A stretch of 64,000 nucleotides of DNA from Thiosulfativibrio zosterae (GTDB lineage: Bacteria > Pseudomonadota > Gammaproteobacteria > Thiomicrospirales > Thiomicrospiraceae), in assembly GCF_011398155.1 (NCBI RefSeq), contig NZ_AP021888.1:640001-704000 (forward strand), written 5' to 3'. The translations under genes and the position numbers were made by a program. Each line of letters opens with the position of its first letter. Position 1 is the first letter of the stretch. Shown here piece by piece: positions 54,039 through 60,516 of the stretch. The notes under the pieces were generated by a model that searched no databases, was not told the DNA's origin, and saw only the letters and a program-made list of their open reading frames with translations.

Positions 54039-56246
54039 ATGTGTCGTTTTTTTGCGACTTGTCCGAAAGGGATGAGTGAACTCTTGAAAGAGGAGTTGGA
54101 GTCGTTTGGGGCTGAGTCGGTTAAAGTTCAGCCTTCAGGTGCTACCTTTGAAGGCGACATGGAAGTGGGTTATCGTGCGGTTTTATGGTCACGCTTAGCC
54201 AACCGCATTTACTACACTTTGCTAGAAACCGAGCTTGATAACCAAGAGGCTTTAACGCCTGCGGTGAGCGCGATTGAATGGTCGGAGCATTTGGATGCCG
54301 AGGGCACTTTTTTGGTGTCTTTTTCTGGACAAGGTTTGAATATTACCCATACCCATTTCGGGGCGTTAAAAATCAAAGATGGTATTGTGGATTATTTTCG
54401 AGGCATTGGCGATGTGCGCCCGTCGGTCGATACGGATTATCCTGATGTGCGCATTCATGGTCATGTGAATCGCAATCGCATTACCTTGGGTTTAGATTTG
54501 TCGGGTCACAGTTTGCATCAACGCGGCTATCGCGAAGGCACGCAGGTCACCGCACCGCTCAAAGAAAACACCGCGGCGGCGATTTTAATGCGTGCCGGTT
54601 GGCCAGAAATTGCCAAACAAGGTGGTTGCTTTTACGACCCCATGTGTGGCTCGGCAACCTTTTTGGTTGAAGCGGCCATGATGGCTTCGGATTGTGCGCC
54701 AGGCATGATGAAAGCTGATGAAAAAGGGTTGGTGACTTGGAAGCAATATGATGCGGTTTTGTGGCAGAAGTTGTTAGACGAGGCAGCGGTGCGTGAATCG
54801 ATTGGTTTAAAAACCTTGCCGCATATTTATGGTTCGGACATTTCCCACAAATCTTTGGAGATAGCGCGTATTTCCATTCAACAAGCGGGCTATGATGACA
54901 TTATCGAAATTAAACAAATGTCGGTAGTGCAAGGACGCAAATGGGGCGAGTGGACGCCAGGGCTTATCGTCACCAATCCGCCTTATGGCGAACGCTTGGG
55001 CGAGTTGGAAGAAGTTAAGCAAACCTATTTACAGTTAGGTGACTTTATCAAAGCCGAGTTTGCGGGCTGGCAAGCGGCGGTTTTAACTTGTAACTCCGAA
55101 TTGGGAATGTATCTTGGCATTAAGGCCAAGCGTTCGCATGATTTCTTTAACGGGGCGATGGAGTGTAAGTTGTTCCGCTTTGATGTTGAAGAAAGTTGGT
55201 TCAGACAACCTGCCATTGCGTTGAATCAAGATCTGCCTGAAAAGCTTCAGCAGCTTCAGCCAGAATTGGCGACCACCGAAGGCGCGGTGATGGTGGCCAA
55301 TCGTATTAAAAAGAATTTAAAAGGTTTAAAAACCTGGGTTAAGCAAAACGAAATTGGCGCTTACCGTGTGTATGATGCCGATTTACCGGAATATGCCTTA
55401 GCGATTGATTATTATCCAACGCTGGAAGGTGGCGATTGGTTGATGGTGGCGGAGTATGCACCGCCTAAGACGGTTAACCCGACTAAAGCGCGTCGTCGTT
55501 TGTATGAGGCTTTGGCGGTTTTGCCCAGCGTGTTTGATATTCCCTCAGACCGAATTGTTTTTAAAGTGCGCAGTCAGCAAAAAGGCTCAGAGCAATATGA
55601 AAAGCTGGAGAATCAAAAGCAATATTTCACCATTCAAGAAGGTTTGGCCAAAATTCGCGTGAATTTTACCGATTATCTGGACACTGGTATTTTCTTAGAC
55701 CATCGTGAAGTGCGTGCCTATAGTGCTAAGTTAGCGCAAGGCAAAAGTTTCTTAAACCTGTTTTGTTATACTGCAACAGCCACGATTCAAGCAGCTATGG
55801 CAGGTGCAAAATCCAGTTTAAGTTTGGATATGTCAAAAACCTATTTATATTGGGCACAGCATAATTTTTGGACCAATAACATGGATGACAAAAAGCATCG
55901 TTTGCAGCAGCAGAATGTTATTGAGTGGTTGGCTAAAGAATCAGAAAACCCGACTGAAAAATTTGATGTCATCTTTTTAGACCCACCGTCCTTTTCGTCA
56001 TCAAAGCGCATGGACGGCACCTTGGATATTCAGCGCGACCATGTTTGGATCGTTCAGCAGGCTTTGTCTTTACTAACGCCGGATGGCAAGTTGATGTTTT
56101 CTAATAATTTACGCAAGTTTAAATTAGATGAAGCCGCTTTTGAAGCTGACTGGCAGATTGAAAATATCACGCAAAAAACCATGCCTAAAGACTTCGCTCG
56201 AAACGCTAAAATCCACCAGGCCTGGGTGTTTTCGAGGAAAGTTTGA
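54039..56246 (+). CDS. rlmL: Bifunctional 23S rRNA methyltransferase RlmKL
   Basis: 735 residues. The THUMP domain (about 40-155) is followed by the RlmL m2G2445 methyltransferase with DPMCGSATFLVEAAM (about 205-219) and VTNPPYGERLGE. The C-terminal RlmK m7G2069 methyltransferase has FLNLFCYTATAT and FLDPPSFSSSKRM. Fusion of both enzymes is normal in gammaproteobacteria. It ends with a near-copy of the dyad (about 56214-56225) read HQAW. Its stop overlaps the ATG of the next gene by one base (TGATG). Confidence 0.96.
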   Translation: MCRFFATCPKGMSELLKEELESFGAESVKVQPSGATFEGDMEVGYRAVLWSRLANRIYYTLLETELDNQEALTPAVSAIEWSEHLDAEGTFLVSFSGQGLNITHTHFGALKIKDGIVDYFRGIGDVRPSVDTDYPDVRIHGHVNRNRITLGLDLSGHSLHQRGYREGTQVTAPLKENTAAAILMRAGWPEIAKQGGCFYDPMCGSATFLVEAAMMASDCAPGMMKADEKGLVTWKQYDAVLWQKLLDEAAVRESIGLKTLPHIYGSDISHKSLEIARISIQQAGYDDIIEIKQMSVVQGRKWGEWTPGLIVTNPPYGERLGELEEVKQTYLQLGDFIKAEFAGWQAAVLTCNSELGMYLGIKAKRSHDFFNGAMECKLFRFDVEESWFRQPAIALNQDLPEKLQQLQPELATTEGAVMVANRIKKNLKGLKTWVKQNEIGAYRVYDADLPEYALAIDYYPTLEGGDWLMVAEYAPPKTVNPTKARRRLYEALAVLPSVFDIPSDRIVFKVRSQQKGSEQYEKLENQKQYFTIQEGLAKIRVNFTDYLDTGIFLDHREVRAYSAKLAQGKSFLNLFCYTATATIQAAMAGAKSSLSLDMSKTYLYWAQHNFWTNNMDDKKHRLQQQNVIEWLAKESENPTEKFDVIFLDPPSFSSSKRMDGTLDIQRDHVWIVQQALSLLTPDGKLMFSNNLRKFKLDEAAFEADWQIENITQKTMPKDFARNAKIHQAWVFSRKV

Positions 56247-57607
56247 TGTTAAATGTTTTCCGTATTTCAGAAATGGTGGGTATTGCACCGATTGAGCTCT
56301 TGGAAATAGAGCGTTACGGTGCTGATTTGGTCGCCAGTAAACCTTCATTTATGGACGCTTTAAAAGAGTGGCAAAAAGAGTTTCAAGTGACCGCCAATCA
56401 TGAGGAAGTCGTTGTTGCGGGTTATTACGAAGCGCTGATAGGCGGTGAATATGGGGATGCGTTTTATATCGTCCAATATCAGCAAGCCTTGAACTGGATT
56501 CATTTTGATTTGTCACAAAGCAGAGTAATGTTAATTTTAAGTCAATTTCGTCGTTTGTTTATTCAGTTTGCGGAGCAGCTGGGTTCTCATAATTTGGCGA
56601 AAGGGCTGTGTCATGCCCTAGATATTGGACAATCGATTGTGTCCTTAGTTTATAGTGTGGTTGAAGCGATAGAGCGTATGAAGTTGCGCTCTGAAAGCGA
56701 AATTCGTCGTATTCAAAAATCTTATCAACTGATTTCAGCAGAAATTCCGCCAGCTATTTTAAATGCCTATATGGATCATCAACGCTGGAAGTTGGTTGCT
56801 TTTAATCTGGCTTTAGGTCGTCCTTTGGATTGGGAAGGATTTGAAACATCGCATCTTAAGTGCCGCTTGGCACACTGGCTGAATGACGGCGGCTTGGACT
56901 TAATTCCTCAAGAGAAGCAGGCTATCTTTTTTGAAGCCCATGAACGCGTGCATCGTTTTGGTCAGCTGGCGATTGCCCAATCGCATAGTAACCAACCAGA
57001 AAAAATATTAACCATCCTTTCAGATATGGAGGGCGCGTCTGATATCGTTGCACAGGTTTTGTTGGATGTTATCGAGTCGGAGTTTATTCGAATTGCCACC
57101 GCAGATGGTTTAACAGGGTTACCCAATCGTCGTTCGTTTGACATGGATTATGATCAGGATGTCGCCTTTGCCAAACGCCATGGTTTTTGGGTCGGTTTGA
57201 TTTTAATAGACATTGATTTTTTTAAGCAGGTTAATGACCAGCATGGACATAGTGCGGGTGATTTTGTGCTTAAGGAAATAGCGGCAATCTTAAGTAAATC
57301 GCTCAGACAAGAAGAAAAAGCTTATCGTTGGGGTGGGGAAGAGTTTGCCATGGTGACTTTAGATAGTCAGCCTGGTGGCGCTGAAATTTTGGCAGAAAGA
57401 GCGCGTAAACTGGTGGAAGATCATGTTTTTGTGCTTAAGGATTCTACAGAGCTGAAGTTGACCATCAGTTGCGGGTCTATTTGTTTTCCGCCAGACTGTC
57501 AGCAACTGAAGCATGAAATTTTTGCAATGTCTGACAAGCAGCTTTACAAAGCGAAAGAAAGTGGGCGCAATCAAGTGCAACATAGAACAATCAAAAGCGA
57601 TTTGTAA
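56246..57607 (+). CDS. Diguanylate cyclase with globin-like and CZB (zinc-sensing) domains
   Basis: 453 residues. An N-terminal all-helical domain (about 1-155) looks like a globin-coupled sensor; at the expected proximal-His place (QYQQALNWIHFDLS) there is Leu, so haem binding is doubtful. A CZB domain (about 165-285) has its four zinc ligands, His178 in MDHQRW, Cys206 in LKCRLAHWL, His232 and His236 in EAHERVH. The C-terminal GGDEF has RWGGEEF (363-367); the inhibitory site is RQEE, not RxxD, so product inhibition may be lost. GAGGAAAG precedes ATG 56246. Coupled to rlmKL; the next gene is a paralogue lacking GGDEF. Confidence 0.82.
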   Translation: MLNVFRISEMVGIAPIELLEIERYGADLVASKPSFMDALKEWQKEFQVTANHEEVVVAGYYEALIGGEYGDAFYIVQYQQALNWIHFDLSQSRVMLILSQFRRLFIQFAEQLGSHNLAKGLCHALDIGQSIVSLVYSVVEAIERMKLRSESEIRRIQKSYQLISAEIPPAILNAYMDHQRWKLVAFNLALGRPLDWEGFETSHLKCRLAHWLNDGGLDLIPQEKQAIFFEAHERVHRFGQLAIAQSHSNQPEKILTILSDMEGASDIVAQVLLDVIESEFIRIATADGLTGLPNRRSFDMDYDQDVAFAKRHGFWVGLILIDIDFFKQVNDQHGHSAGDFVLKEIAAILSKSLRQEEKAYRWGGEEFAMVTLDSQPGGAEILAERARKLVEDHVFVLKDSTELKLTISCGSICFPPDCQQLKHEIFAMSDKQLYKAKESGRNQVQHRTIKSDL

Positions 57608-57622
57608 ACTTAGGGGGAAAGC

Positions 57623-58480
57623 ATGCGAAATATTCAAATGTTGTTGGGCATGGAGCCGCTTGAAGTTTTAGAAATTAGGCAGCATCAAGCATTTTTGTTG
57701 GGCTTACAACAAAAATTTGAAGCCAATCTTGCTCAATGGGAAGAAATGATGCCGCTCAAGCCAAAAGAAACCCCCTTGTTGGTGGATGGTTATTATGCGC
57801 AGTTGGTGGGTGGGTATTATCGAGAGAGTTTTTACAATATCCAGTATCAGCAAGCATTGCAGTGTTTTGCCAAAGGTTTCACGCTAAAAGAAGTCGCGAT
57901 TTTGACCGATAGAATTCGCCAGTTTGTCATCGCTGAAAGTTTAGCAACGAGTGAATTGCTGTCTAAAGCCCTAGAGCATGTGGTCGATTTGGTTTACGCT
58001 ATTTTCAGCCATATTTTTGGCTTGTTTGCATCAATTGAACGCATGAAGCAGCGTTCCACTTCTGTGATTAAACGCATTGAAACTTCTTACGCAGTCTTGT
58101 CACTGAGCGCACCTCAGGCATTATTAGATGCTTATCGTAATCACCAGCGCTGGAAAGTTGAAGTTTTTAACTTGTCCTTGGGGCGAAAATTAAACTGGGA
58201 GGGATTTGAAATCAACCCAGGTTTATGTGCCTTAGCCAACTGGCTAGAATCAGGTGGGTTAGCGTTGATTCCACTGGAACAACAAGAGGCATTTTTAGAT
58301 GCGCACGATTCTGTGCATTTTTACGGGCGCAGTGCGATTAAATATTCTGAACTTCAGCAATCAGAGCAGATTTTAAACTTTTTAGAAGAAATGGAAGCCG
58401 CATCTGATTATGTCAATCATGTGTTGCTGGAGTTGATTGATAAAGAGTTGTTAAAGCTGGTTGCGGCGCAACACGCATAG
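57623..58480 (+). CDS. Globin-like plus CZB sensor protein without output domain
   Basis: 285 residues, homologous along its length to the first 285 residues of the upstream cyclase (e.g. NIQYQQALQ for IVQYQQALN, NHQRWKVEVFNLSLGRKLNWEGFE). Zinc ligands are kept with identical spacing: His174, Cys202, His228, His232 (H-x27-C-x25-H-x3-H). It ends where GGDEF would begin. It is a full gene with GGGGGAAAG before ATG, so not a pseudogene remnant. It may hetero-dimerise with the cyclase or signal separately (inference). Confidence 0.75.
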   Translation: MRNIQMLLGMEPLEVLEIRQHQAFLLGLQQKFEANLAQWEEMMPLKPKETPLLVDGYYAQLVGGYYRESFYNIQYQQALQCFAKGFTLKEVAILTDRIRQFVIAESLATSELLSKALEHVVDLVYAIFSHIFGLFASIERMKQRSTSVIKRIETSYAVLSLSAPQALLDAYRNHQRWKVEVFNLSLGRKLNWEGFEINPGLCALANWLESGGLALIPLEQQEAFLDAHDSVHFYGRSAIKYSELQQSEQILNFLEEMEAASDYVNHVLLELIDKELLKLVAAQHA

Positions 58481-58528: not shown

Positions 58529-59911
58529 ATGGAACAAACAATACAATTTGATGAAGCCTTAATTAAACGCTACAACCAATCTGGGCCTAGATATACCTCC
58601 TATCCAACCGCGGTGCAATTTACTGAAGGGTTTGGCATTGCAGATTATCAGCGAGCTGTTGAACGCAGCAATCAGTCAGACAAGGCCTTGTCGTTATATT
58701 TTCACATTCCATTTTGCGATACCGTGTGCTTCTTTTGTGCCTGCAATAAAGTCTGGACGCGAGACCGCTCAAAAGCCAAACCTTACTTAGAGCGCTTGTT
58801 TAAAGAAATTGAAATGCAATCTAAGTTGTTTGATCCCAGTCGTAAAGTAGACCAATTACATTGGGGCGGCGGGACTCCGACCTTTATCAATATGGAAGAA
58901 ATGACGCAGTTGATGAACAAAACGCGTCAACATTTTAATTTACATGACGATGATTCTGGGGAATATTCAATTGAAATAGACCCTCGTGAAGCCAATCGAG
59001 AGTCGGTGAAACTACTGCGCACTTTGGGCTTTAATCGCATGAGTTTAGGGGTGCAAGATTTTGACGAAAAGGTTCAAAAAGCCGTCAATCGTATCCAAAC
59101 CCAAGCCGAAACGTTTGAAGTGTTGGATGCCGCGCATGAATCTGGGTTTATGTCGGTGAATGTCGATTTAATTTATGGCTTGCCTTTACAAACTGAAACC
59201 GGGTTTATCAAAACGCTAGACAGAGTGTTAGAGGCTAATCCAGATCGTTTTTCGATTTTCAATTATGCACACATGCCCAGTATGTTCCCCACCCAAAAGA
59301 AAATGAATGAAGCTGATATGCCTTCACCGGATGAAAAGTTGGCGATTTTGTATGCGGCAACTCAGCGTTTGCTTGAGGCCGGTTATGTGTATATAGGTAT
59401 GGACCATTTTGCAAAACCAGACGATGAGTTGGCGATTGCACAACGCAATGAAACCCTGTATCGCAATTTTCAGGGTTATTCCACGCACGCCGAATGTGAT
59501 TTGGTCGGGATGGGGGCAACTTCGATTTCGTTGATTAATAATACCTATGCGCAAAACTATAAGGGTTTGGACGAGTATTATGCCGCCATAGATTCTGAAA
59601 AATTAGCGGTGTTTAGAGGCGTTGAGTTGAATGAGGACGATGAATTGCGTCGTGATGTGATTACCCGTTTAATCAGTCATTTCCATTTAAATTTTGCCAA
59701 AATTGATGCCTTATGGGGGGTTCGTTTTGATGAGTATTTTGCCAGTGAACTGAAAGCCTTAGCACCGATGGTAGAAGATGGATTGGTCAAAATGACCTCA
59801 AGCGATATCTATGTGACCGCGGCAGGGCGTTTGTTAATTCGTAATATTTGTATGGTGTTTGACGCCTATTTAAAACAGGGAACTCAAAACCGTTTTTCTA
59901 AGGTGATTTAA
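58529..59911 (+). CDS. hemN: Oxygen-independent coproporphyrinogen III oxidase
   Basis: 460-residue radical SAM enzyme of haem synthesis. The cluster motif FHIPFCDTVCFFCACNK has Cys63, Cys67, Cys70 and Cys72, as in E. coli HemN. Further: LHWGGGTPTF, SIEIDPRE, NRMSLGVQDFD, VNVDLIYGLP and a C-terminal HemN domain ending VFDAYLKQG. It works under low oxygen. It follows the zinc/globin sensor pair by 48 bp. Confidence 0.96.
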   Translation: MEQTIQFDEALIKRYNQSGPRYTSYPTAVQFTEGFGIADYQRAVERSNQSDKALSLYFHIPFCDTVCFFCACNKVWTRDRSKAKPYLERLFKEIEMQSKLFDPSRKVDQLHWGGGTPTFINMEEMTQLMNKTRQHFNLHDDDSGEYSIEIDPREANRESVKLLRTLGFNRMSLGVQDFDEKVQKAVNRIQTQAETFEVLDAAHESGFMSVNVDLIYGLPLQTETGFIKTLDRVLEANPDRFSIFNYAHMPSMFPTQKKMNEADMPSPDEKLAILYAATQRLLEAGYVYIGMDHFAKPDDELAIAQRNETLYRNFQGYSTHAECDLVGMGATSISLINNTYAQNYKGLDEYYAAIDSEKLAVFRGVELNEDDELRRDVITRLISHFHLNFAKIDALWGVRFDEYFASELKALAPMVEDGLVKMTSSDIYVTAAGRLLIRNICMVFDAYLKQGTQNRFSKVI

Positions 59912-59976: not shown

Positions 59977-60516
59977 ATGGGCGCTTTACAAAATAATCAC
60001 CCCCATTACAAGCTGCAAGATTATGAACTTTGGGAAGGGCGTTGGGAGCTTATCGAGGGCATTCCTTATGCGATGAGTCCTGCGCCTTCGATTCGACATC
60101 AAAGTGTCAGTCAGAGAATTGCGTTGCAATTAGGCAATCAGTTACAAAACTGTCAAACTTGCCAAGCCCTGTTGCCGATTGATTGGCGTATTGCAGAAGA
60201 CACTGTGGTGCAACCTGATAATCTGGTGGTGTGTGGCGAAGTGACTGGGCAATATTTGACGCGCGCACCTGAAATCATTTTTGAGATTTTATCCCCTTCA
60301 ACGGCTTCGAAAGATCGAAACCTCAAGTTTGAACTTTATGAGCGCGAGGGGGTTAAATACTATGTGATTGTTGACCCAGAAACTCAAGTGGCCAAGTTAT
60401 ATCAGCGATTTGCCGATGGGCGTTTTGTGAAACAAATCGACGCTGAAAAACAGCAATTTGTGTTTGATTTGGGCGAGTGTCAACTAGCGTTTGATTTTAG
60501 TTTAATTTGGTCTTGA
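59977..60516 (+). CDS. Uma2 family (DUF820) endonuclease-like protein
   Basis: 179 residues. Uma2 motifs: YELWEGRWELIEGIPYAMSPAPSIRHQ (about 17-42), the PD-(D/E)XK-like core VVQPDNLVVC (about 82-91), EIIFEILSPSTASKDRNLKFELYEREGVKYYVIVD (split about 104-140). The fold resembles restriction endonucleases; the biological role of the family is unsettled, and it is most abundant in cyanobacteria. It stands alone, converging on waaA with a 6-bp gap. Confidence 0.8.
   Translation: MGALQNNHPHYKLQDYELWEGRWELIEGIPYAMSPAPSIRHQSVSQRIALQLGNQLQNCQTCQALLPIDWRIAEDTVVQPDNLVVCGEVTGQYLTRAPEIIFEILSPSTASKDRNLKFELYEREGVKYYVIVDPETQVAKLYQRFADGRFVKQIDAEKQQFVFDLGECQLAFDFSLIWS

Follow-up and report, generated by a model that had tools for sequence, protein, structure and literature searches.

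What might a sensor protein without an output domain do beside a full-length cyclase that carries the same sensor region? This question is raised by two adjacent genes in a 64,000-nucleotide stretch of the Thiosulfativibrio zosterae genome (contig NZ_AP021888.1, positions 640,001 to 704,000; hereafter the window, whose numbering is used throughout). Gene 1 (56246..57607, plus strand) encodes a 453-residue diguanylate cyclase composed of a globin-like domain that is predicted to lack haem, a CZB domain and a GGDEF domain, and gene 2 (57623..58480, plus strand) encodes a 285-residue paralogue consisting of the globin-like and CZB domains; both assignments draw on the open reading frame, domain matches and structure. 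A first-pass annotation, made from the letters of the window, had described two adjacent homologues here, each with a globin-like N-terminus devoid of the proximal His and with a CZB motif of the form H-x27-C-x25-H-x3-H, the second being output-less, and all of these features were recovered in the analyses described below. We propose that gene 1 forms a homodimeric cyclase gated by zinc and redox state and that gene 2 acts in trans to damp it, probably through a non-productive heterodimer, and we assign this reading a probability of roughly 0.4.

Gene 2 is an output-less paralogue of gene 1

The two genes lie head to tail on the plus strand and are separated by 15 nucleotides (nt), with the sequence AGGGGG ahead of the ATG of gene 2. 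Their products are 41-42% identical across approximately 280 residues, and the expectation value (E) of the match, ~1e-67 to 1e-71, places the resemblance far above chance; when the genes were compared at the DNA level, no long repeat was found to be left between them. The end of gene 2 coincides with the junction between the CZB and GGDEF domains of gene 1 (...LLELIDKELLKLVAAQHA against ...LLDVIESEFIRIATADGLTGLPNRR). No GGDEF domain is present in gene 2, nor was a GGDEF relic found in the 48 nt that separate it from the hemN-type gene downstream. Because terminator-like sites around the pair show no excess over shuffled sequence, it is likely that gene 1 and gene 2 share a single transcript.

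Both CZB domains retain a complete set of zinc ligands

The CZB domain of gene 1 (residues 166-286; 56741..57103, plus strand) contains the predicted ligands H178, C206, H232 and H236, spaced as H178-x27-C206-x25-H232-x3-H236, and that of gene 2 (residues 162-285; 58106..58477, plus strand) contains H174, C202, H228 and H232 at identical spacing. Taken singly, the two window proteins score 17.3 and 15.6 bits against the CZB profile (PF13682), for which the cut-off is 29.4 bits. The same profile is matched by all 22 members of the family to which they belong, several of which exceed the cut-off (best E 8e-11), and the full set of three His and one Cys is present in 21 of the 22, the exception (L018) having Ser in place of the Cys. 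A Trp three residues past the first His is also present, a feature described in one survey as conserved among CZB cyclases (PMC8262984). Within the Cys motif, C-x-L-G-x-W, the near-universal Gly is replaced by Ala in both gene 1 and gene 2 (CRLAHWL and CALANWL), unlike in most relatives.

The CZB region of the gene 2 model resembles the middle domain of DosC (4zvc, Z 9.0) and the CZB domain of DgcZ (Z 8.6), and gene 2 retains 22 of 24 strongly conserved CZB positions. Pfam holds a separate profile, PF21118, under the name 'DosC CZB-like middle domain'; it recovers DosC itself with an E of 2e-49, and neither window protein matches it even at an E of 1; the window genome has no PF21118 match. 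We infer that both gene products bind zinc through three His and one Cys. Eight further CZB matches occur in the window genome, in large open frames of 826-1376 codons.

The N-terminal domains are predicted to have a sensor-globin fold

The remaining part of the sensor region comprises residues 1-165 of gene 1, including a long H helix (56246..56740, plus strand), and residues 1-161 of gene 2 (57623..58105, plus strand). No Pfam profile matched this part of either window protein. A structure of gene 2 was predicted with eight sequences (predicted local distance difference test 90.5, predicted template modelling score 0.85), and the best four structural matches to this model are all sensor globins: 8h17 (Z 16.8), 2w31 (15.7), 5ohf (15.3) and 5ohe (14.7), with 133-137 residues covered at root-mean-square deviations (rmsd) of 1.9-2.3. 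As purely helical models may reach a Z of ~14 by chance, the weight of this comparison rests on the coherence of the top four matches and on the 133-137 residues that they cover. With Foldseek alone, E-values for the gene 2 model were weak (2.7 for globin 2w31, at a probability of 0.98), and a sequence search of solved structures yielded nothing beyond chance or coiled-coil matches. Three relatives weakly match the Protoglobin profile (E 0.007-0.04), which lends the fold independent support from sequence. Gene 2 keeps seven of nine conserved globin positions.

The column expected to hold the proximal haem His of helix F was set by the Protoglobin register and by the start of helix G, a mapping that is uncertain by one residue. 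The estimated column is occupied by I85 in gene 1, with W84 before it and H86 after it, and by F82 in gene 2, with C81 before it; the proximal His is thus absent at this column from both proteins. Among relatives, His occupies the column in five (L007, L010, L015, L026 and L027), and Tyr, Arg, Lys, Leu, Gln or Glu elsewhere. In the same bacteria, the canonical haem globin cyclases all retain the motif H-x-R-[IV] in helix F, and their middle domains preserve the Trp positions and lack the zinc ligands. One of these cyclases is encoded by the window genome itself (L103:625-1974, minus strand; G000:C1 ~1133080-1134375), with the proximal His kept and the zinc ligands absent from its CZB-like middle domain. 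The globin domains of gene 1 and gene 2 are therefore predicted to be free of haem.

The cyclase domain of gene 1 appears competent

The GGDEF domain of gene 1 (residues 284-443; 57095..57574, plus strand) matches its profile with an E of 2.8e-41, and its active site is intact, with IDIDFFK at residue 321 and GGEEF at residue 363. Residues 164-450 align with full-length DgcZ (4h54) at a Z of 24.7 and an rmsd of 4.4. The first-pass annotation had stated that the cyclase lacks the RxxD inhibitory site. The site is indeed non-standard, but it is not simply missing: it reads RQEE, a conservative departure from RxxD. Most relatives carry RxxD at this site, and RxxE is found in three others. This inhibitory site is in any case optional for the GGDEF family. 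The window genome as a whole yields 65 GGDEF matches in 2.65 Mb (G000:C1), an unusually dense network for cyclic dimeric guanosine monophosphate (c-di-GMP).

Gene 2 as a lineage-specific tandem duplicate

Relatives of the whole sensor region were found in 20 of the 62 genomes of the host family, the window genome included, and relatives with a name belong to Hydrogenovibrio and Thiomicrorhabdus; outside the host family they were found in one other family (G206, the one genome representing its order) and in a Halothiobacillus metagenome-assembled genome (L036). Searches of plasmids and viral contigs found no relatives in either. In the window, the pair is preceded by what we take to be an rlmKL-type 23S rRNA methyltransferase gene (54039..56246, plus strand), whose stop codon overlaps the ATG of gene 1 as TGATG, and is followed by what is presumably a hemN-type oxygen-independent coproporphyrinogen III oxidase gene (58529..59911, plus strand). 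This position is conserved: in the window and in 18 further genomes of the host family, the locus is flanked by rlmKL and hemN. In 13 genomes examined that lack the gene, rlmKL and hemN are immediate neighbors. No short copy was found elsewhere in the 62 family genomes or in a sample of 369 genomes of the class.

Phylogenetic analysis places the two genes as sisters (support 91/87), with an end branch of 1.42 for gene 2 as compared with 0.29 for gene 1; gene 2 evolves about five times faster. The two proteins have diverged unevenly, their identity being 50% in the CZB domain, 33% in the globin domain and 14% in helix G. Gene 2 is accordingly a lineage-specific tandem duplicate in which the zinc module has been kept and the globin domain changed.

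Relation to known cyclases and sensors

The annotation had also held that the addition of a globin module to a CZB-GGDEF cyclase was an unfamiliar layout, a view that does not survive comparison with the literature. DosC/EcGReg (YddV) and BpeGReg consist of a globin, a middle domain and a GGDEF domain (PMC5549716), and gene 1 resembles them in the order of its globin, CZB-like middle and GGDEF domains and in their size of 460 residues; the fold matches of the gene 2 model likewise lie among sensor globins and in the DosC middle domain. Globins are also listed among CZB-associated domains in the CZB survey, in which 27.1% of sequences have no recognised output (PMC8262984). In the DosC type the haem His (H98) is present and the middle domain has no zinc ligands; in the family of gene 1 and gene 2 the zinc ligands are preserved and the haem ligand is absent from most members. 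No link between these two groups is evident at the level of sequence. Profile comparison (hhalign) of the globin and CZB part of the family with the canonical globin cyclases of the same bacteria and with DosC gave 3% or less, and the canonical globin profile (hmmsearch) had no significant match in the family, so that the argument for shared ancestry of the two layouts comes from fold and order alone.

A second point of comparison is DgcZ (YdeH), which shares with gene 1 a CZB domain bearing three His and one Cys, the conserved Trp at the third position past the first His, and a GGDEF domain. Unlike gene 1, DgcZ has no globin domain; a further difference is the Ala of gene 1 and gene 2 in place of the near-universal Gly of C-x-L-G-x-W, and the cited literature describes no output-less paralogue beside DgcZ. 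DgcZ is inhibited by zinc, and oxidation of the Cys relieves this inhibition (PMC8846402, PMC8262984); a 2026 preprint makes the case that the free zinc pool serves as a redox signal that CZB domains read (PMC13370339).

Globin folds lacking a haem ligand are likewise known from signalling proteins, as in the N-domains of RsbR and MabR and in pXO1-118/pXO2-61 (SkiA), and SkiA resembles gene 2 in being an output-less sensor copy. These likenesses are of fold and were drawn from published descriptions rather than from comparison with the gene 2 model, and no CZB domain is described for RsbR, SkiA or MabR in the cited literature. In Bacillus, output-less non-haem globin sensor copies act against a related sensor kinase (PMC5862856), and a title cited in that paper calls such proteins non-haem globin sensor domains.

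The gene pair is accordingly a variation on the known globin-coupled and CZB cyclases, and its unusual part is the output-less paralogue, found in one genome. Neither a globin-CZB-GGDEF protein nor a tandem pair of this kind is described in the available text of the CZB survey (PMC8262984), and a search of the open-access literature turned up no publication describing either such a pair or a zinc-ligand-bearing globin-CZB-GGDEF protein. In DosC-type oxygen sensors, no ligand is known for the CZB-like middle domain, and what the domain does has yet to be explained. The existence of a family of the same layout in which the zinc site is intact and the haem ligand mostly absent suggests that the globin-CZB-GGDEF protein may at one time have sensed two inputs, with one or the other dropped in different lineages, an idea for which the pair provides a testable case.

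A model for the pair and its alternatives

GGDEF domains work as dimers. In the model that we favor, gene 1 would be a soluble homodimeric diguanylate cyclase whose CZB domain holds Zn2+ by three His and one Cys, the metal fixing the dimer in an inactive arrangement; loss of zinc or oxidation of the Cys thiolate would then free the GGEEF domains to make c-di-GMP, by analogy with DgcZ. The N-terminal sensor globin, its haem ligand lost, may serve as a dimerization module, as a site for a non-haem ligand, or as both. Gene 2, a tandem duplicate that has lost the GGDEF domain, keeps the zinc site and is probably co-transcribed with gene 1, would most likely act in trans on gene 1. A heterodimer of the two would contain a single GGDEF domain and so could not catalyse, and gene 2 would thereby damp the cyclase to an extent set by zinc/redox conditions and by the relative amounts of the two proteins. 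We advance with considerable doubt the more specific proposal of a split pair, in which the output-less globin-CZB protein shuts off a non-haem globin-CZB cyclase through a zinc/redox-dependent heterodimer and the proportion of two paralogous metal sensors determines c-di-GMP synthesis.

The first-pass annotation had likewise suggested that the short protein regulates the cyclase by heterodimerization as a zinc/redox-tuned partner, an idea that is plausible. A partial precedent is provided by BpeGReg, of which fragments 1-266 and 1-296, comprising only the globin and middle domains, still inhibit motility in vivo, an observation that led its authors to propose mixed signalling teams; the GGDEF domain of EcGReg on its own is monomeric and inactive (PMC5549716). 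By analogy, the BpeGReg fragments would be a plausible precedent in spirit for gene 2 acting in trans, and gene 2 might be regarded as a natural version of these unexpectedly active fragments.

Several observations weigh against damping by a heterodimer of non-haem sensors. In globin-coupled sensors the G helix contributes to the dimer interface, and the main point against heterodimers is that the pair, only 33% identical in the globin domain, falls to 14% in helix G; gene 2 may consequently no longer pair with gene 1, which leaves room for models in which it acts as a decoy or as an adaptor. In addition, the pair occurs in one genome, the sole genome of its genus that was compared. Finally, the mapping of the haem ligand may be off by one residue, H86 of gene 1 is adjacent to the estimated column, and five relatives have His there.

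If gene 2 were a decoy, its own homodimer would take the signal, either zinc or a globin ligand, from gene 1 without contact. The intact CZB site of gene 2 beside a diverged, dimer-related G helix would fit such a role, for which the Bacillus proteins that inhibit a related sensor kinase offer a precedent (PMC5862856). Zinc, however, is buffered and very tightly bound by CZB domains (PMC8262984), and stoichiometric titration by one protein is therefore unlikely; we discounted zinc as the decoy signal on the strength of this reported affinity, so that the model requires a putative globin ligand, and we consider it unlikely overall. Alternatively, gene 2 could be an adaptor that brings another GGDEF protein of the genome into a signalling team. 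The 65 GGDEF matches would supply candidates, BpeGReg 1-266 and 1-296 act on motility without a cyclase domain (PMC5549716), and the roughly fivefold faster evolution of gene 2 looks as though its partner had changed, but adjacency and common domains point to gene 1 as the likeliest partner; this too seems an improbable account of the gene.

That gene 2 is a decaying duplicate without present function might be suggested by its long branch and its restriction to one genome. Against this, its reading frame is intact, a ribosome-binding site is present, and despite ~60% protein divergence its set of zinc ligands is complete and 22 of the 24 conserved CZB positions have been maintained, making decay very unlikely. 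The last alternative concerns gene 1, whose globin could bind haem through the displaced H86 or another ligand, yielding an oxygen sensor like DosC with an added zinc module. H86 is adjacent to the residue at the estimated proximal position, His stands in the column itself in five relatives, and hemN adjoins the pair. Yet the column is otherwise occupied by Ile, Phe, Leu, Tyr, Arg, Lys, Gln or Glu, the helix of gene 2 contains no His, and H-x-R-[IV] is retained by canonical haem globin cyclases from these bacteria; haem binding by gene 1 is thus a distinctly unlikely prospect.

Variants of the locus and neighboring sequence

Two relatives at the rlmKL-hemN locus (L017:1456-2862 and L018:940-2346, the latter on the minus strand; genomes G013 and G008) lie on a long branch and have a destroyed GGDEF active site (YVEEQQIF) with the inhibitory site kept as RTED. 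These constitute a second case of output loss at this locus, and L018 has also lost the zinc Cys; their product is possibly a c-di-GMP receptor, or the gene may be decaying. Other orthologues (L015:1477-2250, and L021/L028 in G021 and G034) are broken by a stop or frameshift and represent either pseudogenes or sequencing errors. In G011 and G012, second copies are found away from the rlmKL-hemN locus (L026 and L027; also L033 and L034), each with another GGDEF gene adjoining. They nest among sequences of genus g6, which suggests horizontal transfer. In the window, a small open reading frame after hemN (59977-60516) gives the impression, from its sequence, of a Uma2-type restriction-endonuclease-like protein.
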